DNA from: Lachnospiraceae bacterium
Lineage (GTDB): Bacteria > Bacillota > Clostridia > Lachnospirales > Lachnospiraceae
Length of the DNA: 64,000 nt
Assembly: GCA_023663945.1 (NCBI GenBank)
Contig: JAMPGL010000008.1
Span: forward strand, 1 to 64,000
Reading direction: 5' to 3'
Shown here piece by piece: positions 2,979 through 21,037 of this stretch. Each line of letters opens with the position of its first letter. Positions within the stretch are counted from its first letter, which is position 1. The notes below the pieces were generated by a model. That model ran no database searches. It worked only from the letters and a program-made list of their open reading frames with translations, and was not told the origin of the DNA. Made by a program: the position numbers and the translations under genes.

Positions 2979-3923
2979 ATGATTGAATTTGGCGAAAAGA
3001 TAAAACGGCTGCGGGAAGGAAAGGGAATGACTCAGCAGACATTGGCAGACCAGCTATATGTTACCAGACAGGCGGTATCCCGGTGGGAGTGCGGAGCGCG
3101 TTATCCGGAGCTTTTGATGGCAAAAAGGATTGCGGAGGTGCTGGAAACCTCTGTGGATGAGCTTTTATCGGGGGAAGAATTTGTAAGGGACATTGAAAAG
3201 GAGCCTATTCTGCACAGGCAGGGTTCCAATTATATGCAGACGATATTGTATACAATGGGGGCAGTTTCTTATCTGCTGATTGGAATATGTCTGACGTACT
3301 CAATGTTTGTCTGGGGAATTTATGACGTTTTCACGGTCTTAGGGTATGGAATTAGTTTTATGGCAATGGCGTCGGGAATTTATTTTTCAGTAAGAAATGA
3401 AATTTCCCCAAGAAAAACAGGAGTTATTTTATGCGCGGAATTTTTGCGGGCTTGGTTTGTCTTTATCGGCGCATGTACAATGACTATTTTTGTGGGAAAT
3501 GGACGGATAACGCCTCATACATGGGTGTCTTTGGCGTGTCATGCCGTGGAGGCAGTGCTGATTATCCGATATTTTTTAGGAAATTGTTTCATAGGGAATT
3601 TTTTCATAGAAAATTCTTCCCTTGGAAATTCTTTCAAAAAGAAAAAACGAATTTCACCGATACCGGTGTATGTAATAGGAGTCCTTATGGCGGCGCAGGG
3701 GGTACTGCAGTTTCGGTTTTTATTTCAGGATTCTTTTGCATTTATTTCCAGCAAAGAGGCGGATGAAGGGTTAGGAGCTCTTTTGACTATGATGGTCATT
3801 GCATTGGGACAGTTCGCAATTGGGGTGTTGACAATTTATCAGGCATATGTGCTGGATAAGAAAAGGAAATCACTTGCAAAACCTGAGCACGGATGTTATT
3901 CTTTTGGGGAAAATACAGGTTAA
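2979..3923 (+). CDS. XRE-family regulator with membrane domain
   Basis: This 314-residue protein has a Cro/C1-type helix-turn-helix at residues 1-65 (MTQQTLADQLYVTRQAVSRW), then several hydrophobic helices over about 85-300, interrupted by a lysine-rich loop. Such HTH-membrane fusions are common in Firmicutes and are assumed to respond to membrane or envelope signals; the target is unknown. ATG 2979 is preferred over TTG 2940 because AAAGGAG precedes it at good distance. A short degenerate repeat encodes IGNFF, IEN and LGNSF units at about 3590-3640. The malQ gene follows 21 bases later. Confidence 0.85.
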   Translation: MIEFGEKIKRLREGKGMTQQTLADQLYVTRQAVSRWECGARYPELLMAKRIAEVLETSVDELLSGEEFVRDIEKEPILHRQGSNYMQTILYTMGAVSYLLIGICLTYSMFVWGIYDVFTVLGYGISFMAMASGIYFSVRNEISPRKTGVILCAEFLRAWFVFIGACTMTIFVGNGRITPHTWVSLACHAVEAVLIIRYFLGNCFIGNFFIENSSLGNSFKKKKRISPIPVYVIGVLMAAQGVLQFRFLFQDSFAFISSKEADEGLGALLTMMVIALGQFAIGVLTIYQAYVLDKKRKSLAKPEHGCYSFGENTG

Positions 3924-3944
3924 TGGTCAGCACTGGAGGTAAAA

Positions 3945-5435: not shown

Positions 5436-5444
5436 GATAAATGA

Positions 5445-5501
5445 AAATGCCTCACAGTTTGGCGGGAATTAGGCTGTAATCCGCAAAACTGTGAGGCATT
5501 T
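5445..5501. terminator. Bidirectional terminator between malQ and CYTH gene
   Basis: The arms AAATGCCTCACAGTTT (5445-5460) and AAAACTGTGAGGCATTT (5485-5501) form a long stem with A- and T-rich flanks on both sides. The genes converge here, so the hairpin can serve both. Confidence 0.85.
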
Positions 5502-5518
5502 ATATTGCATAACAAGCG

Positions 5519-6010
5519 TTATATGTTCTGCTGGGAAAGATTGGAGTTGTGATATTGGGGATTTTCTGTCACGTCCTCCAAAAACCAGTCAGGGGGAAGA
5601 AAGGCATTTGCCGTTCTTTCATCCGGAAATTCCACTTCCGCAATGATAAGGGGCGCCAGAGGCGGATCAAAAATATCCAGCTCAATTTTTAAGTCTAACG
5701 GCTTATCGGGAATCGGACAGCCCTCCGCAAAAGAAGGCTTTGCGATAGGGATTAGATACCGCTTTTTGGAGATAACGATGCCGTCTGCCTTTTTAAGAAG
5801 GTGCCGGTAGGCGTGTTCATTTAAGGGGAGGTTGTATTCCTCCCGTGCCAGAAGCCCTTTTCCCTTATAAGTCATATAATAATCCTGATCCTGACGGCGG
5901 ATGCGGACAACCGGATCCGTGCACAGATAAGCCTGCTCTAGTGTAAGGCACTGGTAAGAGGAGAGATTTTCGGGCAGTTCTTTGATTAAAAATTTGCGTT
6001 CAATTTCCAT
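5519..6010 (-). CDS. CYTH domain protein (triphosphate tunnel metalloenzyme)
   Basis: This 163-residue protein starts with MEIERKFL, the ExExK signature of CYTH enzymes, followed by further basic and acidic strands (VRIRRQD, YYMTYKGKG, LKIELDIF, IAEVEFPDE) that form the tunnel in this fold. Bacterial members hydrolyse inorganic triphosphate or related substrates with a divalent metal; the substrate here is not readable. The start at 6010 is chosen over an upstream in-frame start at 6070 because AAAGGA sits just before it and the ExExK motif belongs at the extreme N-terminus. The repeat copy at 6054-6109 lies directly upstream. Confidence 0.9.
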   Translation of the reverse strand: MEIERKFLIKELPENLSSYQCLTLEQAYLCTDPVVRIRRQDQDYYMTYKGKGLLAREEYNLPLNEHAYRHLLKKADGIVISKKRYLIPIAKPSFAEGCPIPDKPLDLKIELDIFDPPLAPLIIAEVEFPDERTANAFLPPDWFLEDVTENPQYHNSNLSQQNI

Positions 6011-6053
6011 AAGGATTCCTTTCCGTACCGTCTTTTCGGACTTGCAGGAGCTT

Positions 6054-6109
6054 ATATATGGATTTTGCAAGAGCCGAAAAGGGCAGTTTGTTGTGTCGTT
6101 TACTATAAG
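6054..6109 (+). repeat. Dispersed repeat, copy B
   Basis: This is the second copy of the element at 167-228, in the same orientation, 6 bases shorter and ending in ACTATAAG like copy A. It lies 44 bases upstream of the CYTH start, on the opposite strand sense from copy A relative to the downstream gene. Nothing coding is seen in it. Confidence 0.6.
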
Positions 6110-6186
6110 TTACCCCATTTTAAATCAATTAGAATAGAAAATCAACGGTGCTGAATGGAAAATGACAGTAATAATGAAAGAATAAG

Positions 6187-6245
6187 TTTAGTCAAGTATG
6201 ATTTGCCAAATCGTAATTGACTAAATGGATAATAGACGATATACT
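6187..6245 (+). promoter_or_regulatory. Sigma-A promoter overlapped by a nested palindrome
   Basis: TTTAGTCAA (6187-6195) and TTGACTAAA (6217-6225) are perfect inverted repeats, and GATTT (6200-6204) with AAATC (6208-6212) forms a second dyad about the same centre. The right outer arm contains the -35 box TTGACT (6217-6222), followed after 17 bases by TATACT (6240-6245). The layout predicts that a protein bound to the palindrome would block this promoter of the ATPase gene. Confidence 0.75.
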
Positions 6246-6292
6246 TAATTTATCGGGTATGAGTTGTAAGAGAAGTGCAGAGAGGTAAAGCG

Positions 6293-7714
6293 ATGTTTAT
6301 TGGAAGAGAGCGAGAGCTGGATTCATTGGATAAGCTGTATGCGTCGGACCGATTTGAGTTTGCCGTAATTTATGGACGGCGCCGGGTGGGAAAAACGGCT
6401 CTGATTAATCAGTTTATCAATAATAAAAGATCAATTTATTTTATGGGTGTTGAGAGTAATGCCAAGCAAAATCTGGAGAATCTCAGCAGAAATATTTTGG
6501 AGTACGGGGCAGGTATTCAGGCGGAAACGGCATTTCTTTCTTTTCAGGCAGCACTTCAATATGTGTTTGAATTGTCAGAAAAGGAACGTCTGGTGCTGGC
6601 GATTGATGAATATCCCTATGTGGCTAGATCTTCGAAAAGCTTTGCATCCACGTTACAGCTTTTGATTGATCAATACAAAGAAAAGTCAAAGCTAATGTTG
6701 ATTCTCTGCGGTTCGTCTATGTCGTATATGGAAGATCATGTACTGGCTTACAAAGCTCCCCTTTATGGCAGGCGAACGGTGCAAATAAAGGTTCTTCCGT
6801 TTGACTTTTTTGATAGCTGTTGTTATTTTAAGCATTTTTCCAATGAGGACAAGGCGCTGGTCTATGGGATTGTGGGCGGAACACCGCAATATTTACTGCA
6901 AATGGATGACAGGATCAGTGTTGAAGATAATATTAAGAAAACATTTTTGAATCCAACTTCCTCTCTTTTTGAGGAGCCGGAAAATCTGTTGAAGCAGGAG
7001 GTGCGTGAACCGGCGTTGTATAATGCAGTTATTACGGCGATTGCAGCCGGCGCGTCGCGTATGTCGGAGATTGCCGCCAAGGTTGGGGAAGATACAAACG
7101 TGTGTGCTTCCTATTTAAAAAATCTGTTGGAGCTTGGACTGATTCAAAAGGAGACTCCTTATGGAGAAAAGACCTCCCGAAAGTCTGTTTATGGGATTGC
7201 CGACAATATGTTCCGGTTTTGGTATCGGTTTGTTCCGGAGAATAGTTCCATTATCGCCCGCGGTGCAACAGAAGCCGCTTATAAGCGGATAGAGCCATTT
7301 CTGGCAGATTATATGGGAAAAGTATTTGAGGAGATTTGCAGGCAGTATCTTTGGGAGCTTTTGCTTAATGATGAATCTCCTGTCAGATTTGCGGAGCTTG
7401 GGCGTTGGTGGGGGACAGACCCGGCGGACAAGAGGCAGACAGAAATTGATATTATGGGAGTACAGGATAAAAGCACCGCTTTGTTTGGCGAGTGTAAATG
7501 GACAAATGAAAAGGTAGATTTGCATGTTTTGGAAACATTGGCTAAGAGGAGCCGACTGTTTCATTACGAAAAGGCATATTTGTATTTGTTTTCCAAAACC
7601 GGGTTTACAAAAGGCTGCATTGAAAAGGCAGACCAGATGGAAAATGTTACGTTGGTGACTTATGCGGAAATTTTGCGCTTTATGGATGAAAAGAAGAATC
7701 CCGGTGGGGAATAA
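6293..7714 (+). CDS. AAA-type ATPase with DUF234 C-terminal domain
   Basis: This 473-residue protein has an N-terminal archaeal-type AAA ATPase domain with Walker A GRRRVGKTALI (about residues 23-33), Walker B LVLAIDEYPYV and sensor-like LILCGSS. A winged-helix segment (MSEIAAKVGEDTNVCASYLK) precedes a DUF234 region with FGECKW near the end, a form often compared to PD-(D/E)xK nucleases. The role of the family is unknown. ATG 6293 is preferred over GTG 6275 because GAGAGG precedes it. The promoter carries a palindrome (6187-6225); with a winged helix in the product, self-control is possible. Confidence 0.88.
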   Translation: MFIGRERELDSLDKLYASDRFEFAVIYGRRRVGKTALINQFINNKRSIYFMGVESNAKQNLENLSRNILEYGAGIQAETAFLSFQAALQYVFELSEKERLVLAIDEYPYVARSSKSFASTLQLLIDQYKEKSKLMLILCGSSMSYMEDHVLAYKAPLYGRRTVQIKVLPFDFFDSCCYFKHFSNEDKALVYGIVGGTPQYLLQMDDRISVEDNIKKTFLNPTSSLFEEPENLLKQEVREPALYNAVITAIAAGASRMSEIAAKVGEDTNVCASYLKNLLELGLIQKETPYGEKTSRKSVYGIADNMFRFWYRFVPENSSIIARGATEAAYKRIEPFLADYMGKVFEEICRQYLWELLLNDESPVRFAELGRWWGTDPADKRQTEIDIMGVQDKSTALFGECKWTNEKVDLHVLETLAKRSRLFHYEKAYLYLFSKTGFTKGCIEKADQMENVTLVTYAEILRFMDEKKNPGGE

Positions 7715-7804
7715 GAGAAGGGCGTAACTTTGTCAATGCGACTTTTAAATTTAATGTATAATGATTTCGCGATATAGTTTGAAAATAATTTGGAGAAAAG
7801 AATA

Positions 7805-7929
7805 ATGATGGCTGTCGCATATGAAAAACTGTCAAAAGCGTTGAAAAGGTGTGCCGCATATTGCGTTGCAATGTAGATGACATGCTAGATTTTATCAATA
7901 AAGATTTAGCAGAGAGTGAGGATAAATAG
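7805..7929 (+). pseudogene. Internally deleted XRE (HTH_26-type) regulator
   Basis: ATG 7805/7808 follows TTTGGAGAAAAG and reads (M)MAVAYEKLSKAL, the usual start of small YozG/HTH_26 regulators. The family's C-terminal part is recognisable in another frame as SVEKVCRILRCNVDDMLDFI, ending at TAG 7927-7929 directly before the mod start. The recognition-helix segment between them is missing and the frame is broken, so the gene is dead. It fits a lost controller of the adjacent restriction-modification operon. Confidence 0.7.
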
Positions 7930-9519
7930 ATGGGTAATAAGTTAGAACTGACATGGTATGGCAAGGAAGAACCGCTAAAAATCGAGCCTCGTCTGTTGAT
8001 TGAAAATGTAAAGTTGTCATATGGATGCGGCAATGAAGGAATAACAGACAATATGCTTATCCATGGAGATAATCTGCTGGCACTAAAGGCATTAGAGAAA
8101 GATTATACTGCGAAAATAAAGTGTATTTATATTGACCCGCCTTATAATACGGGCAGTGCTTTTGAACAGTATGATGATAATATGGAACATAGTCAATGGC
8201 TTAACTTGATAAGACCAAGAATTGAGTTGTTGCGGAAACTTTTAAAAGATGATGGAAGTCTTTGGATTAGCATAGATGATGATGAGCAGGCATATTTGAA
8301 GGTGTTGTGTGATGAAATTTTTGGAAGAAAGAATTTTGTAACATCTGTAGTGTGGCAGAAAAGAACATCTCCTGATATGAGAGCGGTGATAAGTGATGCA
8401 CATGATTATATTTTGGTATATGCAAAAGATAAGGAAAAATTTAAAGAGACAAGAAATAAATTGCCATTGAGTGAAGAACAAGCAAAAAATTATAAAAATC
8501 CAGACAATGATCCAAGAGGACCATGGACTTCAACTGACTGTACAGCACAGGCAGGACATGGAACGGCAAGCCAGTTTTATACGTTTGTTACACCTGCTGG
8601 ACGTGAAATTACCTTACCAGATAGCTTATGTTGGAGATTCACGAAAGAACGGCTTGAAGAGGAAATTGAGGCAGGCAGAATTTGGTTAGGCAAGGATGGA
8701 ATGGGCGTTCCGAGAAAAAAGACATATTTATCGGAGAGTGATGGAGTTACGCCTTGGACATGGTGGACAAATAAAGAGGTTGGTCATAATCAGGAGGCCA
8801 AAAAAGAGAATAATGTTCTTTTTGGAAGCAGTAATGCTTTTACAACGCCGAAACCGGAACGTTTGATAGAACGAATTATTGAAATTGCTACGAATCCAGA
8901 TGATCTTGTTTTAGATAGTTTTCTTGGTTCAGGAACAACGGCAGCGGTAGCGCATAAAATGGGAAGACGGTGGATTGGCATTGAGATGGGGGAACATGCT
9001 TTTACGCATTGCAAAGTCCGATTGGATAAGGTGATAGCAGGAGATGATGCAGGTGGAATCACAAAAGCTGTAAACTGGCAGGGGGGAGGCGGTTATCGTT
9101 TTTATGAACTTGCCTCATCATTGATTGTGGAGGATATGTTTGGTGAAAAGATCATTAACCCTGAATATAATGCTGATATGCTGGCGGCAACAGTTGCGCT
9201 TCATGAGGGATTTACTTATCAGCCTGATGAGAGCTTATTTTGGAAACAATCAAAAGGTAATGAAGATTCATTTCTCTATGTGACAACAAAGCATATAACA
9301 GGTGCATACATAGACTCTATAAGAGATACGATGGCGGATAATGAATATTTAATTATTGCGTGCCGCTCTTATGACAGAGGGATAGAGAAAATTTATAAAA
9401 ATATTACCATCAAGAAAATACCGCAGATGCTCCTTCCAAAATGTGAGTTTGGAAAGGAAAACTATAACTTAAATATCATACATCCATTGGTGTATGATGA
9501 GGAGGATTGTGATGAGTGA
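7930..9519 (+). CDS. mod: Type III restriction-modification methyltransferase (Mod)
   Basis: This adenine-specific DNA methyltransferase is also the specificity subunit of a type III system. Within 529 residues, the catalytic motif IV DPPY lies at 69-72 (YIDPPYNTG) and the SAM-binding motif I DSFLGSGTTAAVAHK begins near 329. Motif IV before motif I is the beta-class order of Mod proteins. The variable region between them probably reads the target site. Sequence and codon use are AT-rich compared with flanking genes, suggesting transfer. It overlaps the res gene by 8 bases. The recognition sequence cannot be deduced from sequence alone. Confidence 0.94.
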   Translation: MGNKLELTWYGKEEPLKIEPRLLIENVKLSYGCGNEGITDNMLIHGDNLLALKALEKDYTAKIKCIYIDPPYNTGSAFEQYDDNMEHSQWLNLIRPRIELLRKLLKDDGSLWISIDDDEQAYLKVLCDEIFGRKNFVTSVVWQKRTSPDMRAVISDAHDYILVYAKDKEKFKETRNKLPLSEEQAKNYKNPDNDPRGPWTSTDCTAQAGHGTASQFYTFVTPAGREITLPDSLCWRFTKERLEEEIEAGRIWLGKDGMGVPRKKTYLSESDGVTPWTWWTNKEVGHNQEAKKENNVLFGSSNAFTTPKPERLIERIIEIATNPDDLVLDSFLGSGTTAAVAHKMGRRWIGIEMGEHAFTHCKVRLDKVIAGDDAGGITKAVNWQGGGGYRFYELASSLIVEDMFGEKIINPEYNADMLAATVALHEGFTYQPDESLFWKQSKGNEDSFLYVTTKHITGAYIDSIRDTMADNEYLIIACRSYDRGIEKIYKNITIKKIPQMLLPKCEFGKENYNLNIIHPLVYDEEDCDE

Positions 9520-12166
9520 CATTGAATTTTCACAATACACGACGGATTATATTGCAGGAGTGATGTCTTTACGTGAACCGCAAAAGGAATCCCTAAAAAG
9601 ATTGGAACAGATTACAGAGGCTGTTACGCTAAATAAAAATACGGATTTGGAAAAGGCACTGGAATGTGTCAGAGGCATGTTTCCGACTTGCTCTGCATTT
9701 GAGAGGTCTTTTCTTTCTGTAACATTTGCATTAGCAACAGGGGTTGGGAAAACCCGGCTAATGGGCGCTTTTATTACATATCTTTATACACAAAAAGGGA
9801 TAAAGAATTTTTTTGTGGTTGCGCCGGGAACGACTGTTTATGAAAAGTTAAAGAATGATTTGGGAAATCCAAGCAATGCTAAATATGTATTTAAAGGGTT
9901 AGGTTGCTTTTCGCTGCCACCCAGAGTCATTACGGACGAAGAATACAGCAGCAGAAATTTATATGCTTTTGATACAGATATTCACATCTATATTTTTAAT
10001 ATTGATAAGTTTAATAAAGAAAATGTCAATATGCGGAAGGAAGATGAATATTTTGGCGGTTCATTTCTACAGTCGTTAGCAGATTTGGATGATTTGATAT
10101 TGCTTATGGATGAATCGCATCATTACAGGGCACAAAAGGGAACACAGGCTTTGGATGAGTTAAGACCTGTACTTGGTTTAGAACTGACGGCGACACCGTT
10201 AGTAAAAGCGGGAACAAAGCAAATTCCATTTAAAAATGTTATTTATGAATATCCGTTGTCAAAAGCGATTGAGGATGGGTATACAAGGACGCCTTATGCT
10301 ATTACAAGGTCAGATATTGATTTTTTCCATTTTGGAAATGAAGCGTTGGACAAGCTGATGTTGCAGGATGGAATTGCGCAGCATGAAAAAACAAAGCAGT
10401 GTTTGGAAGAATATGCTTTATCTCATGATAAGGATAAAGTAAAACCGTTTGTGTTGGTAGTGTGTTCGGACACAGATCATGCCGCATGGGTGGAAAATTA
10501 TATTAAGTCAGATGAATTTAAATCAGGGAAATATAAAAATAAAGTCATTACGGTACATTCCAAGAAAAGCGGAGCGGAAAGTGATTTTAATACCAGATTA
10601 CTGCTTGGCGTAGAACAGGCAGATAACCCTGTGGAAATTGTTATTCATGTAAATATGTTAAAAGAAGGATGGGATGTTAATAACCTTTATACGATTGTTC
10701 CGCTTCGCACTGCTGCTTCAAAAATACTTCGTGAGCAGATGGTAGGGAGAGGACTGCGCTTGCCATATGGGAAAAGGACGGGTGATAAAGCGGTTGATGC
10801 GGTGATGCTGACTGCACATGATAAATTCGAAGAGATACTGGAAGAGGCACAAAAAGGAGATTCCATTTTTAAAAAAGGTAATATTATCAATCTTGATAAG
10901 GAAGAGGAAGAAGAAACGGTTTATACACAGTTATCTTTTAATATAGAAGAAAACCGCAATTTGGATTCCGCATACGAATATACAAAGATTGAGAAAACGC
11001 AGGAAACAGACGCTGTATTAAAACAAGTGACAGAAAAAATATATGAGAAGATTTCGGAACAAATACAAACAAGTTCATGCCATGTGGTTACAGAAGAAGA
11101 TGAAAAAACAATTGCGCAATGTGTAAAAAAAGAATTGGCGGAAGATGTGGACTTGGGAGAAACATTCCGCAAAAATGCAGATCCAATCAGCGCATGGACA
11201 GACTATCAGACAAAAGAAATCCATCGCGCAGTTGTTGATAAGTACATTCCCATACCTAAAATCAAGGTTTCGGATAATGGAGTAGTTGATTATATTTATG
11301 AAGATTTTGATTTGGATTTAGGTAAATTTACGCAGACACCCATAGATAACCAGCTTTTGATACAGAATTTGGAAGATCCGAGTGACTTACAGCGTGTTCG
11401 TGGAGACAAAATAGATTTTGGAGCGTATGAACCAAAGAAAGTCATTTTGGAACAGATAAGAATGCAGCCGGAAGTGGATTATGAAAAATGTTCCGAACTG
11501 CTGTACAAACTGATTACGCAGGTATGCGATTATTTTGAAAACAGATTCGGGCAGAATGGGATGCAGAATATTGTGATGATGAACAAGGTCAGTATCGGGA
11601 AAGAAATATATGAACAGTTGTTGCAGCATTTTAAGGTTACGACAGGATTTTTGGAAGAAGAAGTAATTGATGTTGTAAACTATAATGTCCGCCCAAAGTA
11701 TCATGGCACATATAAATTGAACTTGTTTGCGACATTTGAAACAAGAATCCAAAATATTATATTTACAGGCATTAAAAAGGGAGTGTTTGAAGAAGCAAAG
11801 TTTGACAGTGAACCTGAACTTGTGCTTGCACGTGTTTTAGAGCAGGACAATGATGTCAAAAACTGGCTTCGTCCAGCATCAACTCAGTTCAATATCACTT
11901 ATAATCATGGACATCGGTATGAGCCGGATTTTGTGGTGGAAGCAGAGGATGTTATATATCTTGTTGAGGTAAAAGGCGAGGATAGGATAGATGATGCGGA
12001 TGTCATTGCCAAGAAGGAAAGAGCAATCCGATATTGCAAAGCTGTTTCTGCATGGGGAAAGGCAAGCGGATATAAGAAGTGGCAGTATCTTTTCATTCCG
12101 GCGGGAGAGGTTCATGCTAATTCTTCTTTTGGGCAGTTGGCGAAAAGGTTTATAGATTGCATTTAA
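9512..12166 (+). CDS. res: Type III restriction endonuclease (Res)
   Basis: This 884-residue partner of Mod scans DNA with ATP and cuts unmethylated DNA away from the site. A superfamily 2 helicase core is visible: Walker A ATGVGKT starting at residue 74, motif II DESHH starting at 200, and MVGRGLRLP as motif VI. A C-terminal PD-(D/E)xK nuclease motif has P805-D806 and E819-V-K821. All key residues are present, so the enzyme looks intact. ATG 9512 is preferred over 9494 because GAGGAGG lies just before it. The 8-base overlap with mod indicates coupled translation. Confidence 0.94.
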   Translation: MSDIEFSQYTTDYIAGVMSLREPQKESLKRLEQITEAVTLNKNTDLEKALECVRGMFPTCSAFERSFLSVTFALATGVGKTRLMGAFITYLYTQKGIKNFFVVAPGTTVYEKLKNDLGNPSNAKYVFKGLGCFSLPPRVITDEEYSSRNLYAFDTDIHIYIFNIDKFNKENVNMRKEDEYFGGSFLQSLADLDDLILLMDESHHYRAQKGTQALDELRPVLGLELTATPLVKAGTKQIPFKNVIYEYPLSKAIEDGYTRTPYAITRSDIDFFHFGNEALDKLMLQDGIAQHEKTKQCLEEYALSHDKDKVKPFVLVVCSDTDHAAWVENYIKSDEFKSGKYKNKVITVHSKKSGAESDFNTRLLLGVEQADNPVEIVIHVNMLKEGWDVNNLYTIVPLRTAASKILREQMVGRGLRLPYGKRTGDKAVDAVMLTAHDKFEEILEEAQKGDSIFKKGNIINLDKEEEEETVYTQLSFNIEENRNLDSAYEYTKIEKTQETDAVLKQVTEKIYEKISEQIQTSSCHVVTEEDEKTIAQCVKKELAEDVDLGETFRKNADPISAWTDYQTKEIHRAVVDKYIPIPKIKVSDNGVVDYIYEDFDLDLGKFTQTPIDNQLLIQNLEDPSDLQRVRGDKIDFGAYEPKKVILEQIRMQPEVDYEKCSELLYKLITQVCDYFENRFGQNGMQNIVMMNKVSIGKEIYEQLLQHFKVTTGFLEEEVIDVVNYNVRPKYHGTYKLNLFATFETRIQNIIFTGIKKGVFEEAKFDSEPELVLARVLEQDNDVKNWLRPASTQFNITYNHGHRYEPDFVVEAEDVIYLVEVKGEDRIDDADVIAKKERAIRYCKAVSAWGKASGYKKWQYLFIPAGEVHANSSFGQLAKRFIDCI

Positions 12167-12399
12167 GAAGAATGACAGAATTGTGGCGCATGTTTTTCAG
12201 CATTTTTACTGCCAGCAACTTTGCGTTTGTCAACTTCATATACGATCTGGCTGATGCCCTCTTTTTCAAGGTCAATAAAATAGATATTTGAGAAAATTAA
12301 AATTGAAAGATATTTTTTTGTATTTGCATCACAGTAAAGTTGAAAATCAGAATGTTTAAATGTTGAAATAGTTGAAAAGTTGAAAATTAAATGTTGAAC
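12163..12399 (-). pseudogene. Possible remnant of an unknown gene
   Basis: The roughly 300 bases after res hold no intact gene. On the minus strand one frame is open for 78 codons with protein-like content (IYFIDLEKEGISQIVYEVD, then KRKVAGSKNAEKHAP) ending at 12163, but it has no ATG start and no ribosome site. It may be the C-terminal remnant of a gene disrupted when the island formed. I do not recognise a family. The AT-rich part at 12300-12410 contains repeated GTTGAAA words. Confidence 0.3.
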
Positions 12400-12465
12400 T
12401 TATACGTTGACATATGCTGAAATGAGTGATATTCTTATGAAAAGAGAAGGATTGGAGGAATTATA

Positions 12466-13224
12466 ATGTCGGATTTGTTCAAATTACCGGGATCATCATA
12501 TGATGGTCTTATAAAAATAATTAGAGCATATGGCGCATCAAAAGAAGGAGTGCCTATTTCTTTAGCAGAATTGGCACAGATTTCAGGTATGGATAGGACG
12601 GTTATTAGTAGGAATAACGGATTTTTGACTGAAATGAAATTGATATCAGAAGGAAGTAAAAAGGCAGCTACAGAGATATGCTTTAAGCTTGGTAAAGCAT
12701 ATGCATTGGGAATGGACGAGCAAATAAAGATAATTTGGAATGAAATAGTAAAGAATGATGAGTTTTTAAGTCGCATGATATCAACAGTTCAGATTAAAGG
12801 AGAAATGACTAAACAAGACTTTATAAATCATATTGCTTATTCGTCTTCCAATACTAATACAAATAATACACGAACAGGTGCATCGGCAATAGTTGAAATA
12901 TTGAAGTTGACGCAATTGATTGAAGAGAAGGAAGGGAAAATTATTGCTGGAAATGGAAATGTAAGTTGCAAGGGCACGGAAGAGAGAAAGGATGTTGAAA
13001 CACCTTTGAATGGAGATGAAATTATTATCAAGAAGAATGGAAGCCTAAATAGAGATGTTATTTCTCCTGAGATAGGATATTATATCCAATCGTATACTTG
13101 CGAATCAGGTAAAATGGCAAAGTTTATAATACCAGAAGATGCAACGGAAGATGATTTGCTGGCATTCGAAGATATGCTAAATATTGTTTTAAGGAGAAAA
13201 TTTAAAATTAGATCAAAAATTTAG
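12466..13224 (+). CDS. Winged-helix-like protein, partner of DUF3800 gene
   Basis: This 252-residue soluble protein is not assigned to a named family by me. The N-terminal 85 residues look like a winged helix (VPISLAELAQISGMDRTVIS, then NNGFLTEMKLI). The middle is Ser/Asn/Thr-rich (residues 120-140) and followed by a helical segment and a C-terminal domain ending in RRKFKIRS. GGAGG precedes the ATG. It is AT-rich, 13 bases upstream of the DUF3800 gene, and directly follows the type III system, so both genes probably form one operon in a defence island. It may control or target its partner. Confidence 0.6.
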   Translation: MSDLFKLPGSSYDGLIKIIRAYGASKEGVPISLAELAQISGMDRTVISRNNGFLTEMKLISEGSKKAATEICFKLGKAYALGMDEQIKIIWNEIVKNDEFLSRMISTVQIKGEMTKQDFINHIAYSSSNTNTNNTRTGASAIVEILKLTQLIEEKEGKIIAGNGNVSCKGTEERKDVETPLNGDEIIIKKNGSLNRDVISPEIGYYIQSYTCESGKMAKFIIPEDATEDDLLAFEDMLNIVLRRKFKIRSKI

Positions 13225-13237
13225 AGGAGGAATATGA

Positions 13238-13966
13238 ATGAAAGAATATTATCTTTTTTTAGATGAATCAAAACCCAATACAAATTTTCAAAATTTCACA
13301 TTGGGCGGTGTGGCTATTGAAAAAGAAAAGTATGAATTAGAAATTAAACCTGATGTAAAAAAGATAAAAATAGATTGTTTCGGAAGTGATCAAGTAATTT
13401 TGCATGAAATCGATATTCGTAAAAAGGAAGGAGATTTTGAAGGAATTACGAAACGGCAGCAGAGTGATTTTTTTAATAGGTTGGGACATTTGTTTATCGA
13501 TAATGATTTTCTGACAGTTTTTGCAGTATCAATCAACTTAAGTGATTTAGATAAATTATATAAAGCCGAAGATAGAAATGATATTTATTATATTGCTTTA
13601 CAACTTTTAATGGAAAATTATGTCCAATTTCTTTCAGTGCACGAGGGTAAAGGATATATATACTTGGAAACAACAGATGACGTTAATAATGCTAAATTGC
13701 AGAATTTGTTTCACTTACTAAAGGCTACGGGAACTTTATTTGTAAAGAAGGAAACACTTCAGGCAAGATTGCATACTATCAACTTTGCAATTAAATCAGA
13801 AAATAATATTGGCTTGCAGTTGGCAGATTTTATTCCCAATGCTTTGGCTAGAAAAGCACTTGGTAAATCTCAAAAGCCTTTTTCAATAATTGATGGAATA
13901 AATGAAAGGCTCTATGATGGTGGAGTCGGTTTGCGCGAAAGATTCGGATTCAAGATTATAAAATAG
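13238..13966 (+). CDS. DUF3800 domain protein
   Basis: This 242-residue protein has the DUF3800 hallmarks: an N-terminal strand with FLDESK (D9-E10), a mid-protein region of strands and helices, and the C-terminal NIGLQLADFIPNALARKAL with a conserved Asp. The family has been suggested to have an RNase H-like fold with these acidic residues as the active site, which would make it a nuclease; no function is established here. GAGGAGG precedes ATG 13238. Hairpins at 13992-14070 probably end the two-gene transcript. Confidence 0.8.
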   Translation: MKEYYLFLDESKPNTNFQNFTLGGVAIEKEKYELEIKPDVKKIKIDCFGSDQVILHEIDIRKKEGDFEGITKRQQSDFFNRLGHLFIDNDFLTVFAVSINLSDLDKLYKAEDRNDIYYIALQLLMENYVQFLSVHEGKGYIYLETTDDVNNAKLQNLFHLLKATGTLFVKKETLQARLHTINFAIKSENNIGLQLADFIPNALARKALGKSQKPFSIIDGINERLYDGGVGLRERFGFKIIK

Positions 13967-13991
13967 TTGTTGACATAAGACATATAAATGC

Positions 13992-14070
13992 TGTAAGATA
14001 AAACTTGTAAGAGGAAATGCATAGCTATTCATCTTACATATAAAGAGAGAATTGCATAGCTTTTCTCTTT
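13992..14070 (+). terminator. Two consecutive hairpins after the DUF3800 gene
   Basis: TGTAAGAT (13992-13999) pairs with ATCTTACA (14031-14038). AAAGAGA (from 14042) then pairs with TCTCTTT (ending 14070) and is followed by a T-rich run, as in a rho-independent terminator. A near-repeat of GAAATGCATAGC occurs in both loops. Confidence 0.6.
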
Positions 14071-14142
14071 TTTGCATTTTTTTAAAAGTTTTACATATAA
14101 TATTACCCCGGAGAATTTTATAGTATTTTCAAAGGGAAATGG

Positions 14143-14171
14143 CGGAGTGCATTATATAATTTTGCACTCCG
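14143..14171 (+). terminator. Hairpin with T-run
   Basis: CGGAGTGC (14143-14150) and GCACTCCG (14164-14171) form a perfect 8-bp stem followed by TTTTACC. It may be a second terminator or a relic of a lost gene, since no intact gene ends here on the plus strand. Confidence 0.55.
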
Positions 14172-14357
14172 TTTTACCATTTTATATGTTCTCGGATCTT
14201 TAGCCTTCATTTTGTAAGACCTTTAGGCCTCTCTCACGCCAATAAGTAGACAAAATTGTATTCAGGTTGTTCTGAAGGACAAAACCCAAAAGTATAATGC
14301 GGTCTCAAAGGCTGGCAGCATGGGTGAGTTATTCCGATTGAACATATTTGCAATCAG

Positions 14358-14400
14358 CTATCCATCGGGAACGGGAAACGCCCTAGTCCCCGATGGATAG
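14358..14400. other. Perfect 12-bp stem-loop in a non-coding tract
   Basis: CTATCCATCGGG (14358-14369) pairs exactly with CCCGATGGATAG (14389-14400), and the loop contains GGG/CCC able to pair again. No T-run follows on the plus strand. The tract 14172-14425 has no open frame I can support; it may be a structured RNA, a recombination site or the edge of the island. Confidence 0.45.
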
Positions 14401-14425
14401 ATTGTGCGTGAAACGAACAAAGCTG

Positions 14426-14752
14426 TTACTTAATGTTGACAGACCACTTTGCCAATTTTGATAAGATTGGCAGCAAATCCTGTGTCAGATCTGTCGTTTC
14501 GTACTCCACCCGTATGGGAACTTCCATGTATTCCGTCCGCTTTATAAGTCCGTTATCTTCCAACTCTTTCAAAGATTTAGCAAGCATTGTATTGGAAATT
14601 CCTTTAATTTTGCGTTTCAGGTCATTGTAGCGGGTAGCGCCGCTGGCATTCAGGGAGCACAGGATAGAGAATTTCCATTTTCCACCGAGGGCATCTGACA
14701 CTTTTTGCAGCGGGCATTTTTCCGTACAGGGACAGGCAGCGTTGACTGTCAT
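14426..14752 (-). CDS. HxlR-family transcriptional regulator
   Basis: This 108-residue winged-helix regulator has the HxlR hallmark CPLQKVSDALGGKWKFSIL near the start, and a recognition region with YNDLKRKIKGISNTML. Cysteines C7, C9 and C13 at the N-terminus could sense thiol or redox stress, as in related YodB/HypR proteins, though this is inference. It is divergent from the flavodoxin gene across a 190-base region that carries a consensus promoter (14810-14838), so it probably controls that gene and itself. Confidence 0.9.
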   Translation of the reverse strand: MTVNAACPCTEKCPLQKVSDALGGKWKFSILCSLNASGATRYNDLKRKIKGISNTMLAKSLKELEDNGLIKRTEYMEVPIRVEYETTDLTQDLLPILSKLAKWSVNIK

Positions 14753-14809
14753 AGCTGTTTTCTCCTTCTAACTCAGTTTTTTCTTACTTACTCATAAATA
14801 ACTTTGTAA

Positions 14810-14838
14810 TTGACACCAGATAGGTATGCCAATATAAT
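14810..14838 (+). promoter_or_regulatory. Consensus sigma-A promoter of flavodoxin operon
   Basis: TTGACA (14810-14815), a 17-base spacer and TATAAT (14833-14838) match the consensus exactly. AT-rich TTACTTACT/AACTTTGTAA words just upstream are candidate HxlR-binding sites. Confidence 0.85.
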
Positions 14839-14942
14839 TATATACGGTACGGAAATAAGAGTAAAGCATTTTTTGAGAGCATGAGAAAATTTATAGCCGT
14901 CTATCCTTAAAATTTAGAACGGCAGAGAGAAGAGGTGCGTTT

Positions 14943-15362
14943 ATGAATGTTGCAGTGAGGTATTACACAAGGTCAGGAAACACCAAAAAACTTGCTGAAG
15001 CGGTTGCGCAGGCGGTCGGAGTGGCGGCAGAAACAACCGAAAAGGCACTTGCGGAGGATGTGGATATCCTTTTCCTGTGCAGTTCGGTCTATGCTTATGG
15101 AGTAGATGAAAGTGTCAAAAAGTTCATTTCGGGCATCAATGTAAAGGTTGGGAAGGTTGTCAATGTCAGCACAGCCGCTCTGGTAAAATCTACCTATAAG
15201 CAGGTAGGAAAGCTCCTAAAGGAAAAAGGGATTCCGCAGGCGGAAGAGGAATTTTACTGTAAGGGTTCTTTTGGACCTATGCATAAGGGAAAGCCGGACG
15301 GAGACGACTGCAAAGCGGCGGCTGCGTTTGCAAAGAAAATTGTAGAAAAGAAAGGGATGTAA
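14943..15362 (+). CDS. Flavodoxin family protein
   Basis: This 139-residue protein starts with RYYTRSGNTKKLAEAVA, the phosphate-binding loop for FMN in flavodoxins, followed by LFLCSSVYAYG and the typical alternating strand-helix pattern. It probably carries electrons or acts as a small flavin oxidoreductase in the cytoplasm. It lies under a consensus promoter opposite an HxlR regulator and 2 bases before a membrane protein gene, so the two are probably co-transcribed and redox-controlled. Confidence 0.88.
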   Translation: MNVAVRYYTRSGNTKKLAEAVAQAVGVAAETTEKALAEDVDILFLCSSVYAYGVDESVKKFISGINVKVGKVVNVSTAALVKSTYKQVGKLLKEKGIPQAEEEFYCKGSFGPMHKGKPDGDDCKAAAAFAKKIVEKKGM

Positions 15363-15364
15363 TT

Positions 15365-16084
15365 ATGCAGGCAATCATGGAAACACTGTTTGATATTGTA
15401 TATCTGGCTCTGGTCATAACAGTTGGAATCAGGATGATGTGTGGAAGTCGCGGAGAGAAACAATATTTCCTCTTTGGACTAATGGCGGTCATTCTCGGCA
15501 CGGGCGATGCTTTCCATCTTCTTCCCCGCGCATATGCATTATGCACTACGGGACTGGAAAACTATACGGCGGCGCTCGGCATAGGCAAGCTGGTCACTTC
15601 GATTACCATGACTCTGTTTTATGTGCTGCTTTATTTTATATGGCGGATCCGCTATCATGTGCAGGGAGGAAATGCCCTGACTGCCTGTGTTTGTGTGTTG
15701 GCAGCGGTCAGGATTATTCTGTGTCTTTTTCCACAAAACGGGTGGACATCTGCGGACGCGCCGCTTGCATGGGGGATTTACAGAAATATTCCGTTTGCGG
15801 CGCTTGGACTGCTTATCATTGTCCTTTTCTTCCAAAAGGCATCCGGAGCAAAAGACAGGGGATTTCGGTTTATGTGGCTGGCAATCGTGCTGAGTTTTGG
15901 ATTTTATATTCCGGTGGTTCTTTTTGCGGACGCAGTTCCCATGATTGGAATGCTCATGATACCAAAGACCTGCGCTTATGTGTGGATGATGCTGATGGGA
16001 TATTATGATATGAAAAGGAAGATCGCGGAATGGAAAAGTAAAAGAGAAGGATTCCCTATGGACGAAGCGGCTGGAAGTTTATAA
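15365..16084 (+). CDS. Multi-pass membrane protein of unknown function
   Basis: This 239-residue protein has about seven hydrophobic helices (for example LFDIVYLALVITVGIR at the start and IPFAALGLLIIVLFF near 145-160) and a short charged C-terminal tail. I do not recognise the family. It begins 2 bases after the flavodoxin stop and is probably expressed with it, suggesting a linked membrane redox or stress role. Confidence 0.7.
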   Translation: MQAIMETLFDIVYLALVITVGIRMMCGSRGEKQYFLFGLMAVILGTGDAFHLLPRAYALCTTGLENYTAALGIGKLVTSITMTLFYVLLYFIWRIRYHVQGGNALTACVCVLAAVRIILCLFPQNGWTSADAPLAWGIYRNIPFAALGLLIIVLFFQKASGAKDRGFRFMWLAIVLSFGFYIPVVLFADAVPMIGMLMIPKTCAYVWMMLMGYYDMKRKIAEWKSKREGFPMDEAAGSL

Positions 16085-16105
16085 AAGATATTATTAAGTA
16101 GAGGC

Positions 16106-16158
16106 TTGTTTTTTTACGATTTTCGGCTAAAATAGAAATATAGAATAAATTAGCCGAA
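16106..16158 (+). promoter_or_regulatory. Promoter and inverted repeat of the DUF4143 ATPase gene
   Basis: A weak promoter, TTGTTT (16106-16111), 16 bases, TAAAAT (16128-16133), is overlapped by one arm of a perfect 9-bp inverted repeat, TTCGGCTAA (16122-16130). The other arm, TTAGCCGAA (16150-16158), runs into the ribosome site AAGGAG. A bound repressor would cover both transcription and translation signals. Confidence 0.65.
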
Positions 16159-16168
16159 GGAGTATGAT

Positions 16169-17392
16169 ATGCGGTATTTATCCAGAAGTCTGGAAGCAGT
16201 GGTAAGCCAAGTTACAAAAGAATATCCGGTTGTACTTGTCACAGGTTCAAGGCAGGTAGGAAAAACAACAATGCTGCGGAAGCTGATGGAAGGAACGGAC
16301 AGGGGATACGTGTCTTTAGATGATTGGAATGAGAGAAATACAGCAAAGACAGATCCGGAATTATTTCTGCAGCTGCATAAACCGCCGGTTTTGATTGACG
16401 AGGTTCAGTATGCACCGGAATTATTTGCTTACATTAAAGTATATGCAGATAAAAATCATGAGCCCGGTGCGTTTTGGCTGACCGGCTCACAGGCTTTTAA
16501 GCTGATGCACGGCATACAGGAGTCGCTTGCAGGGAGGGTGGCTGTTCTCACGATGACATCTTTATCCCAAGCGGAAATATATGGCGGGGAAACGGTTCCT
16601 TTTGTAGTTGATCTGGAAGCGCTCACTGCGCGAAAGAAGGACAGGGAGCCGACAGATGTGAAGGGAATTTTTGAACGGATTTATAGGGGTTCCATGCCTG
16701 CGGTGGTGAGCAATGAGGATAGCAGCAGCCAGATTTTTTACAGCAGTTATTTAAGCACTTATATAGAAAGGGATGTAAGGGAATTGTCAAATGCGATAGA
16801 TTCCTTGAAATTTTTGCGCTTTATTACGGCGGTGGCGGCAAGATGCGGTCAAATGCTTAATGTGGCTGATATTGCCAGAGATGCGGATATTGACCAAAAG
16901 CAGGTAAAGGACTGGCTGCTTATTTTGGAGACATTGGGAATTATCTTTTATCTTCACCCATATGCTAACAATTCGCTGAAGCGTCTTGTAAAAACACCCA
17001 AGCTTTATTTTTATGATACAGGGCTGGTCTGTTATCTGACTAAGTGGAGCAGTGCAGAAACGCTGGAATGCGGAGCTATGAATGGGGCGATTTTAGAAAA
17101 TTATGTTACGGCTGAGATTAGAAAAACCTATTTGAGCAACGGAAGAGAGCCGTTTATGTACTATTATCGTGATAAGGATGCAAAGGAAATTGATATTGTG
17201 CTAGAACATGACGGAGCGTTGAATCCTATTGAAATTAAGAAAACCTCTAATCCGGGCACGGAACTGATCCGGGCGTTTACTTTGCTGGATAAATCGGCGG
17301 TGCTGCGTTCCAAGGGCGCGGTGGTTTGTATGAAGCCGGATTTTGGCGCAATTGACAGGAATCATTATGTGATACCAGTGTGGTTAATCTGA
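16169..17392 (+). CDS. AAA_14/DUF4143 ATPase
   Basis: This 407-residue protein has an N-terminal P-loop ATPase domain (Walker A TGSRQVGKTTMLRK; Walker B-like PPVLIDEVQYAPEL), a winged-helix linker (NVADIARDADIDQKQVKDWL), and a DUF4143 C-terminal domain with AKEIDIVLEHDG and NPIEIKK, spacing reminiscent of PD-(D/E)xK nucleases. The family is widespread in gut Firmicutes and Bacteroidetes; its function is unknown. A second, divergent family member lies at 19736. A palindrome spans its promoter and ribosome site. Confidence 0.9.
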   Translation: MRYLSRSLEAVVSQVTKEYPVVLVTGSRQVGKTTMLRKLMEGTDRGYVSLDDWNERNTAKTDPELFLQLHKPPVLIDEVQYAPELFAYIKVYADKNHEPGAFWLTGSQAFKLMHGIQESLAGRVAVLTMTSLSQAEIYGGETVPFVVDLEALTARKKDREPTDVKGIFERIYRGSMPAVVSNEDSSSQIFYSSYLSTYIERDVRELSNAIDSLKFLRFITAVAARCGQMLNVADIARDADIDQKQVKDWLLILETLGIIFYLHPYANNSLKRLVKTPKLYFYDTGLVCYLTKWSSAETLECGAMNGAILENYVTAEIRKTYLSNGREPFMYYYRDKDAKEIDIVLEHDGALNPIEIKKTSNPGTELIRAFTLLDKSAVLRSKGAVVCMKPDFGAIDRNHYVIPVWLI

Positions 17393-17506
17393 TAGGAAAT
17401 TAATTAAGCGCAGGCATCTGCTCCGTTTAGAAATATTTAATTTGGAAATTAGCGCCTGTAATGGTAAAATAAACTATAGGGTTATTTTTTTTAACAATTA
17501 ATATAT

Positions 17507-17523
17507 GCGCCGACGGACGGCGC
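17507..17523 (+). other. Small GC-rich hairpin before DJ-1 gene
   Basis: GCGCCG (17507-17512) and CGGCGC (17518-17523) pair perfectly around a 5-base loop, just upstream of the ribosome-binding area of the DJ-1-like gene. It could affect translation start. Confidence 0.4.
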
Positions 17524-17539
17524 AGAAATGGGGTGCGGC

Positions 17540-18091
17540 ATGAGCAAGGTATGTGTATTTTTTGGGACGGGCTTTGAGGAGATTGAAGCTCTGACAGTGG
17601 TGGATATTCTGCGGAGAGCAGGAATTGAAACCGTTATGGTGTCTGTGATGGACGGACAGGTTGTGGTGGGGTCTCATCAGATTCCGGTCACGACGGATAA
17701 GCTGCTTGCGGAGGTGGACTTTGACACGGTGGACGTGCTGGTGCTTCCCGGCGGGCTTGCAGGAACCAAGAATCTGGAAGCGTGCGATGCGCTTATGGAA
17801 AAGGTAGATGCCTTTGCGGCGGAAGGAAAGAAGGTCTGTGCAATCTGCGCGGCTCCTTCGATTCTGGGGCACAGGGGACATTTGCAGGGGAAACGCGCAA
17901 TTGCATATCCCGGTTTTGAAGATCAGCTTACCGGGGCGCAGATTGTAAGCGAACCGGCGGTGAGGGACGGCAATATTATCACCGGAAGAGGCATGGGCTG
18001 TTCGATTCCTTTTGCATTGGAAATTTTAAAGAGTTTAACGGATGAGGAGACGGCGGCGGCTATGGCAGAGAAGATTGTATATCTGGCATAG
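17540..18091 (+). CDS. DJ-1/PfpI family protein (YajL-like)
   Basis: This 183-residue cytoplasmic protein has the family's conserved features: FFGTGFEEIEAL with the active-site-adjacent Glu near the N-terminus, the nucleophile elbow CAICAAP, and LPGGLAG. Members act as oxidative-stress or glyoxal-related repair enzymes, or as chaperones; the exact role is not readable. ATG 17540 (MSKVCVFF) matches the usual family start; an ATG four codons upstream is the alternative. It precedes the CBS and GreA genes on the same strand. Confidence 0.9.
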   Translation: MSKVCVFFGTGFEEIEALTVVDILRRAGIETVMVSVMDGQVVVGSHQIPVTTDKLLAEVDFDTVDVLVLPGGLAGTKNLEACDALMEKVDAFAAEGKKVCAICAAPSILGHRGHLQGKRAIAYPGFEDQLTGAQIVSEPAVRDGNIITGRGMGCSIPFALEILKSLTDEETAAAMAEKIVYLA

Positions 18092-19735: not shown

Positions 19736-21037
19736 ATGTATCGTTTGGCAATAGAAAAGCTTAAAAAATGGAAAGAAAGCCGGTACCGCAAGCCTCTTAT
19801 CATTGAAGGTGCAAGGCAGGTAGGTAAGACTTGGCTGATGAAGGAATTTGGACGTTTATATTATTCTAATACCATATATGTAAATTTTGATTCCAATTCG
19901 AGGATGGAGGAGCTTTTTTCATCAGATTTGCAGACAGACAGGATTCTTATGGGGCTGGAACTTTATTTCGGACAAAAGATTAATTCTGAAGATACATTGA
20001 TTATTTTTGACGAGGTGCAGGAGGTACCAAGGGCGCTTACAAGTTTGAAGTATTTTTGCGAAAATTCCCCGGAGTACCATATTATCTGCGCAGGGTCGCT
20101 TCTTGGGATTGCCCTTCATCAAGGAACCTCTTTTCCGGTTGGAAAAGTTGATTTTTTAAAGCTTTATCCGTTATCATATAGAGAGTTTCTTATGGCAACG
20201 GGAAATGAACGGTTTGCTGATTTGCTTGAGAGCTGTGATTTTCAAATGATAACAAGCTTTAAACAGTCTTTTATGGATGCATTAAGGCAGTACTATTTTG
20301 TTGGGGGAATGCCGGAGGCAGTCCTGCGGTTTTCTGAAAATCATGATTTTAGTGAGGTCAGACAGATTCAAAAACGCATACTTGATGCTTATGAGCAGGA
20401 TTTTTCTAAACATGCCCCAAATGAAACGGTTCCCAAAATCAGAATGGTTTGGAATAGTATCCCTTCTCAGCTTGCCAAAGAGAACAAGAAATTCATCTAT
20501 GGACTGGTTCGCGAAGGGGCAAGAGCAAAAGATTACGAGGCGGCAATTATGTGGCTTTCGGACTGCGGACTCGTCCATAAGGTCAGCCGGGTAAATGCAC
20601 CGAATATTCCACTTAAAGCATATGAAGATTTAAAGGCATTTAAACTGTTCTTGGTAGATGTGGGTCTGCTTGGCTGTATGACAGGGTTGAAGCAAAGCAG
20701 CCTGCTTGACGGAAACGGCATGTTTAAGGAGTTTAAAGGCGCATTAACCGAGCAGTATGTTATGCAGCAATTCGCAGCGATTCCAGAGCTGAATACTTAT
20801 TATTACACAAATGACCGCGGTTCTTGTGAGATAGATTTTGTCATAGACAGCGGAGGGCAGGCGGTGCCTGTTGAAGTGAAAGCGGAGGTTAATTTAAGGG
20901 CAAAGAGCCTAAAAACTTATTGTGAGAAATTTGCCCCTAAGACAGCAGTTCGAACATCAATGGCTGATTATAAAAAGGAGAGAAATTTGATTAATCTGCC
21001 ACTTTATGCGGTTGAGGAATTTGCGAAAATACTATAA
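19736..21037 (+). CDS. AAA_14/DUF4143 ATPase
   Basis: This 433-residue protein has Walker A EGARQVGKTWLMKEFG, Walker B LIIFDEVQEVPRAL, sensor-like CAGSLLG, a helical winged-type segment (residues 240-285), and a DUF4143 C-terminus with CEIDFVIDSGGQAVPVEVKA, matching the D...ExK spacing of restriction-type nucleases. Function is unknown. AGGAGG precedes the ATG. The 3' end carries a 31-bp imperfect duplication: TTTGCGAAAATACTATA starts at 21020 and again at 21051, spanning the stop codon. Compare the homologues at 16169 and, more distantly, 6293. Confidence 0.9.
   Translation: MYRLAIEKLKKWKESRYRKPLIIEGARQVGKTWLMKEFGRLYYSNTIYVNFDSNSRMEELFSSDLQTDRILMGLELYFGQKINSEDTLIIFDEVQEVPRALTSLKYFCENSPEYHIICAGSLLGIALHQGTSFPVGKVDFLKLYPLSYREFLMATGNERFADLLESCDFQMITSFKQSFMDALRQYYFVGGMPEAVLRFSENHDFSEVRQIQKRILDAYEQDFSKHAPNETVPKIRMVWNSIPSQLAKENKKFIYGLVREGARAKDYEAAIMWLSDCGLVHKVSRVNAPNIPLKAYEDLKAFKLFLVDVGLLGCMTGLKQSSLLDGNGMFKEFKGALTEQYVMQQFAAIPELNTYYYTNDRGSCEIDFVIDSGGQAVPVEVKAEVNLRAKSLKTYCEKFAPKTAVRTSMADYKKERNLINLPLYAVEEFAKIL

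Follow-up and report, generated by a model that had tools for sequence, protein, structure and literature searches.

A DUF3800 gene followed by a conserved tandem-hairpin RNA element, behind a predicted winged-helix gene, in an inserted block of a Lachnospiraceae genome

In a 64-kb stretch of a Lachnospiraceae bacterium genome (the window, by which we mean the whole stretch), a gene for a winged helix-turn-helix (wHTH)-like protein, here called P1, is followed by a DUF3800 gene, P2. An original prediction made from the DNA letters had proposed the two genes as an undescribed defence unit and had treated what lies downstream only as closing hairpins. From sequence comparison, the partner that appears to be conserved with DUF3800 is these hairpins, a putative RNA 3′ of P2. 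The reading we tentatively favour is a nuclease-plus-RNA module, P2 and its 3′ tandem-hairpin RNA, in which the activity of P2 would be tied to the RNA and P1 would be an upstream switch. It draws on a conserved acidic site in P2, a predicted RNA structure conserved with compensatory changes, and like predicted hairpins 3′ of DUF3800 genes at six loci within one part of the family.

P2 is a DUF3800 protein by Pfam (PF12686, E 1.3e-10, 42.5 bits against a cut-off of 21) and matches the PADLOC profile PDC-M04A (E 2.5e-11). An N-terminal Asp-Glu motif and a C-terminal Asp had been taken to suggest a nuclease, and these residues, D9-E10 and D197, are present and conserved: among 53 distinct sequences, that of the window included, D9 and E10 are each found in 51 (two gaps each), E144 in 52, and H56, Q194 and D197 in all 53. 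The suggestion also agrees with two papers that, in the sections consulted, call DUF3800 an RNase H-fold nuclease (PMC10910872, PMC12669027). The consulted part of a third (PMC3710099) describes "NamA", a predicted RNA-cutting RNase H-fold toxin that co-localises with a HEPN gene and a KorC-like HTH gene, and names RlfA of phage P1 together with the NamA domain. Since RlfA is itself DUF3800 by its record and by Pfam (3.5e-14), NamA would be the DUF3800 family; P2 and RlfA are not alignable by BLASTP (E 0.29). In the parts of the literature consulted we met no bench-tested DUF3800 function.

Between P2 and the hairpins lies a promoter-like site, and the first two hairpins carry the same tip (Table 1). 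The two fold better than 199 of 200 shuffles and are conserved in another genus, so that the hairpins of the original prediction are borne out. The closest P2 relative found, in genome G829 of that other genus, is a C-terminal remnant (74% identity over residues 165-241), and its 3′ flank holds the same element: TTGACA and a −10-like box (TATAAT) right after the stop codon, then tandem hairpins. The copies of hairpins 1-2 in the two genomes fold well, at z −3.3 and −3.9. The two elements share 84% mean column identity, and of 34 predicted pairs 2 are double-compensated, 3 show one-sided changes and none is broken, the consensus fold having been predicted on that same two-sequence alignment. 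We consider it improbable that these are ordinary terminators and that the DUF3800 gene stands alone, outside any special system. The hairpins are AT-rich, a T run follows the second, and the longer stretch 13965-14080 folds at z −1.8 only; however, the apical parts (GC-AUA-GC and its neighbours) are identical between the genera while the stems change compatibly, and in both genomes the promoter-like site stands between gene and hairpins. A simple terminator scan listed no hairpins there.

The element has no gathering-level Rfam match in the window, nor does any Rfam DUF3800 family match 11900-14900 or the 3′ flanks of loci L043 and L046 up to E 10. A covariance model built from the window and G829 (R1, 73 positions) scores both parents near 100 bits by construction (99 and 101); over 44 sources its next same-strand match at a DUF3800 locus lies 48 nt after the stop codon in L044 (26.3 bits, E 0.004), with weaker matches 6 nt after the stop in L046 (E 0.063) and 14 nt after it in L045 (E 0.14). 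Among 160 genomes of the bacterial family six reach E 0.001, and only the window and G829 were retained; the other four, at 33-36 bits, score about as the wrong strand of the parents does (33-35 bits) and hold no DUF3800 gene in the flanks examined. Five viral contigs with an exact 17-base pattern were likewise set aside as chance, with no DUF3800 in the stretch examined.

The tip itself recurs more widely. In the general form G-Y/RUA/R-C it is found twice each in the 3′ flanks of L044, L045 and L046 and four times in that of L043. Six loci together have 14 occurrences in their 300-nt 3′ flanks against about 0.9 expected; 13 of these 14 units fold as a hairpin with this tip. The 18 loci examined hold 15 occurrences in all, where shuffles predict 2.2. 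Counted strictly, the motif is present in 4 of the 36 distinct 3′ flanks of viral DUF3800 genes, three of these four belonging to near relatives; of 226 other 3′ flanks, 2 have it. A tree of the 18 DUF3800 proteins places the motif bearers close to P2, with 4 of 500 shuffles as low, a figure helped by near-copies.

RNAs beside DUF3800 genes are already represented in Rfam, whose DUF3800 RNA series extends beyond members -I, -V, -IX and -XI. Like the element at the P2 locus these adjoin DUF3800 genes, but the window RNA matches none of them, and it is found 3′ of its gene on the gene's own strand, preceded by a promoter-like site. The known RNAs were found beside or near DUF3800 genes in 2 of 30 loci searched, DUF3800-XI just 5′ of the L146 gene and DUF3800-V on the opposite strand, about 160 bp past the L072 gene, so a recognisable RNA does not accompany every DUF3800 gene. 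Two further features were seen in 3′ flanks. In a second DUF3800 subgroup (L035, L047 and L048) another hairpin, with the tip ACC-GUG...-GGU, is followed by TTTTGTGTT or alike, possibly a further undescribed DUF3800 RNA. In L043 (near 4687) and L044-L046, a conserved mini-hairpin, UUA(A)GCGAAAGCG, stands just before the last large hairpin.

P1 matches nothing in Pfam above cut-off and nothing in NCBIfam; weak matches are to PHROGs (best E 0.077) and to the PADLOC profiles BrxP (2.5e-5) and Cmr6 (0.0027), and its wHTH assignment is a prediction from weak HTH matches. An idea of kinship with DUF5343 was not used: no P1 scanned matched DUF5343, a search for its members gave 0 of 60 relatives and also 0 of 14 controls, and the name occurs in no paper found. 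Direct searches with the window P1 through genome contigs, plasmids, phages and a viral collection returned no relatives. Matches were found in 6 of 392 genomes of the order (counting its own and one tail-only match) and in 5 of 397 genomes of the family (counting its own and one weak match), and an alignment of five P1s led to 12 loci in GTDB genomes, from Lachnospiraceae, further Bacillota, Chloroflexota, Verrucomicrobiota, Spirochaetota and Ignavibacteriota, with one unplaced. Once duplicates were merged (L003=L015, L008=L013, L009=L014) and partial matches dropped (G146, tail only; G455 and G421, partial, E 1.9e-4), 16 distinct loci remained, the window's included. The N-terminal part (about 165 aa) is conserved, with an invariant KLP.SSY near the start, while the linker and C-terminal tail vary. 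The window P1 is 28-47% identical to 13 aligned relatives, and profile A3, in which it is included, scores it at about 1e-88.

The usual neighbour of P1 is not a DUF3800 protein. In 11 of the 16 loci a HEPN-like protein with an RNxxxH motif, of about 320 aa (one is cut by a contig end), adjoins P1 across a short gap; these neighbours were found with profile A2, built from four of them. Their C-terminal RN...HG is invariant in an alignment of ten partners and a Haladaptatus homologue, in which the R-to-H spacing is one residue longer, and 3 of 7 scanned show a weak DUF4145 match below cut-off. Profile A6 finds no such partner in the window's own genome, where DUF3800 takes its place. Because P2 thus occupies the usual HEPN-like position after P1, P1 may be a regulator to which different nucleases are attached. 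In L018 P1 is followed by a different protein, of 178 aa, in which RNQCAH is present and which has no Pfam or PADLOC match; that locus (964-5620) continues with a type II restriction enzyme and a methyltransferase.

A search started from the HEPN-like protein matched 1 of 149 genomes of the phylum (L157, described below). Neither P1 nor this partner was found in the viral collection. On plasmids, the P1s of the window, L018 and L017 had no match, P1 tails alone gave none or one chance-level match (E 5), and the HEPN-like protein was met on a single Haladaptatus record with no adjacent P1. Some individual loci hold additional genes. In L157 (6253-8020) the HEPN homologue is overlapped by an upstream 258-aa gene that is P1-like in size and unmatched by the P1 profile, possibly another type of regulator. 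In L014 (16-903) a 295-aa protein with no family match at the thresholds used is encoded 56 bp upstream of the P1-HEPN pair, a possible third component. In L110 (371-4626) fragments of a single reading frame, with the stretch SGATTAFIDSTNKS in common, recur on either side of the P1 cassette, as though it had been inserted by direct repeats or between them.

The regulatory role assigned to P1 agrees with the DNA in front of its gene. Six RTTGA repeats occur there in 140 nt against a shuffle mean of 1.65 (p 0.0035), the last forming part of the −35 box of a promoter-like site, and the densest 140-nt stretch of the whole window (7 repeats) overlaps this array, the next (6) lying inside P1. Similar repeats precede P1 in L110 (6, p 0.001), L012 (4, p 0.06) and L013 (3, p 0.04); the p values are uncorrected and the pattern was chosen after reading the sequence. 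We infer that P1 may regulate its own expression through these repeats. The original prediction of a DNA- or RNA-binding switch holds in part: the repeats would suit a DNA-binding regulator, and the wHTH reading comes from the weak HTH matches.

In the mechanism that we envisage, the tandem-hairpin RNA would be made from its own promoter directly 3′ of P2, and P2 would bind the repeated apical G-Y/RUA/R-C hairpins. The RNA would restrain the nuclease, as an RNA antitoxin would, or direct it. P1, probably an autoregulatory wHTH protein, would bind the RTTGA repeats at its own promoter and hold P1-P2 low. Upon infection, P2 would be freed or boosted once the RNA, being short-lived, was lost or P1 was displaced, and it would then cut RNA or RNA-DNA hybrids, stopping the phage or the cell.

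The two genes look coupled in the window. They are intact and separated by 13 bp, the AGGAGG ribosome site of P2 lies directly 3′ of the P1 stop codon, and their two 1-kb bins share a low GC content (0.35 and 0.31 against 0.36-0.52 in other bins), in accord with the close spacing and AT-richness first noted. The spacing and the ribosome site would also suit a true two-protein sensor-effector, in which P1 would sense and would hold P2, or at other loci the HEPN-like protein, by its C-terminal tail, and the RNA would be only a stable 3′ end or terminator. The P1-HEPN adjacency described above points the same way, as does a difference in tails: four P1s (window, L012, L110 and L111) share a type-B tail, with CESGK..AK..IPEDA..DDL in the clearest three, that differs from the HEPN-linked tail, and in a tree these four group weakly (57/91; 61% of bootstrap trees). 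We nevertheless regard this explanation as doubtful: both other type-B loci with enough sequence, L012 and L110, have no DUF3800 gene, and a promoter-like site precedes the RNA, which is also conserved next to a DUF3800 remnant lacking P1.

Several results weigh against the nuclease-plus-RNA module with P1 as its switch. The claim of a conserved gene pair fell in a search across genomes: P1 and DUF3800 are paired in 1 of 16 P1 loci, the window's, the HEPN-like protein being the partner instead in most, and P1 is absent from all 64 DUF3800 loci of the viral collection, with flanks of up to 4 kb. Among all DUF3800 loci compared P1 is found only at the window's, L035 offering just 465 bp upstream. 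We therefore rejected the conserved pair; its single occurrence is the strongest result against a tight P1-P2 system, and an undescribed P1-DUF3800 system is only partly supported. After the type-B P1s of L012 and L110 come DUF4417-like genes, at 470 and about 220 bp, identified by a Pfam match in L012 and by 27% identity to the L012 gene in L110; in L111, whose contig runs on for about 300 bp beyond P1, no DUF3800 gene starts and P2 has no match. The G829 DUF3800 is a remnant only and has no P1 in the stretch examined. As to the RNA, 11 of 18 DUF3800 3′ flanks have no motif, and the general tip pattern was widened after L043-L046 had been viewed, so the motif counts are descriptive. L044-L046 are near relatives of one another, which leaves about three independent groups, and L041 and L034 fall among the motif bearers, which therefore do not form one clade (2 changes; a single change in 6% of bootstrap trees). 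One unit, the first of L045, does not fold as a hairpin, and outside the fixed tip one stem position pairs in all 14 units, the others in only 4 to 12. The 10 promoter-like sites of the region equal the shuffle mean, and the other 12 P1 loci have none or one RTTGA.

The L012 and L110 loci (919-2875 and 836-2456) have a common layout of P1, a hairpin-bearing spacer, DUF4417 and, at each locus, a pair of small genes, which are unrelated to one another; one in L012 is weakly PDDEXK-like.

Both genes and the RNA lie in an 11.4-kb block between two genes that we take to be CYTH-like and DJ-1-like (Table 1). The CYTH-like gene is found in 35 of 37 genomes of the same genus, its own included, and in 9 of 10 same-genus genomes fetched the DJ-1-like gene follows it within 115-240 bp; the block thus appears to have been gained here, or lost elsewhere. 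The tenth congener, the one with the best CYTH-gene match, carries 3.5 kb of other cargo at the site, with an SLFN_AlbA_2 protein and a different DUF3800 that has the DUF3800-XI RNA 5′ of it (L146, G032:C44, 10856-13586). The site between the two genes is possibly a defence hot spot. A third ATPase gene lies near the block (19736-21037), and all three ATPase genes strongly match the PADLOC candidates PDC-S27 and PDC-S01.

This setting bears on an explanation that we find rather unlikely, in which DUF3800 and its RNA are a mobile-element or phage accessory, serving replication or selfish maintenance, that came to lie behind P1 by chance and has no part in host defence. P2 relatives, present in 5 of 194 related genomes (its own included), are also known from 40 records of plasmids and from 64 viral-collection loci; phage P1 RlfA is annotated as possibly associated with lytic replication; and a second DUF3800 in the window's own genome (39% identity) has no P1 and stands beside what look by eye like mobilisation genes. 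P2, however, resides in a chromosomal block with restriction-modification (R-M) and candidate defence genes, the best-matching congener holds DUF3800, an RNA and the SLFN_AlbA_2 protein at the same site, and DUF3800 is, in the consulted sections of two papers, also an accessory of some CRISPR systems (PMC12669027, PMC10910872), among them some VI-F and V-A2 loci (PMC12669027). The idea of an undescribed defence unit accordingly keeps the support of the block and its contents but loses that of a conserved P1-DUF3800 pair.

An intact type III R-M mod-res pair had been noted upstream, and PADLOC matches (MTase_III, REase_III) confirm it. The two genes overlap and are intact, with the methylase and helicase domains of a type III system present; the nuclease domain of res gives a Pfam match below cut-off. 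That P1-P2 form an accessory arm of this system is very improbable. They adjoin it here, L013 has a type II/III-like methylase gene in front of its P1-HEPN unit, and the unit of L018 is followed by its type II R-M pair; yet P1 lies downstream of res but not immediately, since a gap of 299 bp with a promoter-like site lies between the two, the large upstream gene of L013 has no PADLOC match, and most other P1 loci show by eye no R-M gene in the stretch read. PADLOC scans of P1-locus neighbours covered chosen proteins (two sets of 10 and a few more), and from these we claim no enrichment beside defence genes.

Table 1. Coordinates of the locus and its surroundings in the window
Feature	Position	Strand	Remarks
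CYTH-like gene	5519-6070		left neighbour of the block
Inserted block	6071-17527		holds mod, res, P1, P2 and the RNA
DUF234 ATPase	6275-7714		PADLOC PDC-S27, 7.5e-64
mod, type III R-M	7930-9519	+	PADLOC MTase_III, 2.6e-175; island neighbour
res, type III R-M	9494-12166	+	PADLOC REase_III, 2e-136; island neighbour
Six RTTGA repeats	12339-12410	+	extend into the −35 box of the promoter-like site for P1; candidate operator of P1
Promoter-like site for P1-P2	12407-12435	+	TTGACA-17-TATTCT; 10/12 matches
P1	12466-13224	+	252 aa; conserved N-terminal part (about 1-165), variable linker, type-B C-terminal tail; predicted wHTH regulator or sensor
P2	13238-13966	+	242 aa; DUF3800
Promoter-like site before RNA	13970-13999	+	TTGACA-18-TAAGAT; directly after P2 stop
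RNA hairpin 1	14007-14037	+	apical motif GC-AUA-GC
RNA hairpin 2	14042-14072	+	same apical motif; T-rich end; one G-C to A-U double compensation in the relative
Further strong hairpin	14141-14173	+	possible terminator; z −5.2 for 14085-14190; one G-C to U-A double compensation
HxlR gene	14426-14752		in the block
Flavodoxin-like gene	14943-15362		by eye
DUF4143 ATPase	16169-17392		PADLOC PDC-S01, 1.3e-108
DJ-1-like gene	17528-18091		right flank of the block

Several described systems resemble the locus in part. The PADLOC candidate PDC-M04, with genes A and B, corresponds to the phage-borne pair RlfA/RlfB of phage P1, whose products (NC_005856, 51740-52908; L159) match PDC-M04A at 1e-95 and PDC-M04B at 1.3e-51. 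P2 matches gene A weakly and gene B was not found at the window, and we rejected this identity: P1, res and the three ATPase genes have no M04B match, mod has none among the best 25 of its 69 matches, and a search of the own genome with one M04B model found none; the PADLOC scan of the block and its vicinity covered these genes and P2. In type III toxin-antitoxin systems, ToxIN and its kin, the toxins are of the ToxN, CptN and TenpN families. Common to these and the P2 locus are a nuclease gene and an RNA with tandem structured repeats, but at the P2 locus the RNA lies 3′ of the gene with its own promoter-like site and the protein family differs, P2 having no ToxN, CptN or TenpN match in Pfam or NCBIfam. 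The usual partner of P1 shares the invariant RNxxxH of the HEPN RNases treated with abortive-infection and toxin proteins in the consulted part of PMC3710099, whereas no HEPN-like partner is present at the window locus; the NamA system, as described in that part, does not include P1 as a partner.

Already known, then, are DUF3800 genes with RNAs and, in the part of PMC3710099 consulted, a link of HTH, NamA and HEPN noted in 2013. New as far as our searches reach are the RNA family 3′ of P2 and the P1-HEPN pair, which we did not find described in the open PubMed Central literature, including the consulted parts of PMC3710099 and PMC12839542. A broader reading, which we put forward as speculative, is that of a modular immune platform, in which a P1 family that is rare and spread over several phyla would be combined with interchangeable nucleases, mostly a HEPN RNase and here DUF3800. 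The DUF3800 version would come with a tandem-hairpin RNA, so far undescribed, by which the nuclease is controlled or guided, and the triloop hairpins would serve for recognition in a protein-RNA immune complex; if so, that complex belongs to one part of the DUF3800 family common to a gut bacterium and phage-like contigs. The work brings to light a P1-HEPN gene pair of several phyla. DUF3800 is a predicted nuclease of phages, plasmids, CRISPR loci and islands, and the locus offers a lead on the role of this family: with a 242-aa protein, an RNA of about 170 nt and a clear hairpin motif, it is a compact case in which binding, restraint and target may be tested directly.

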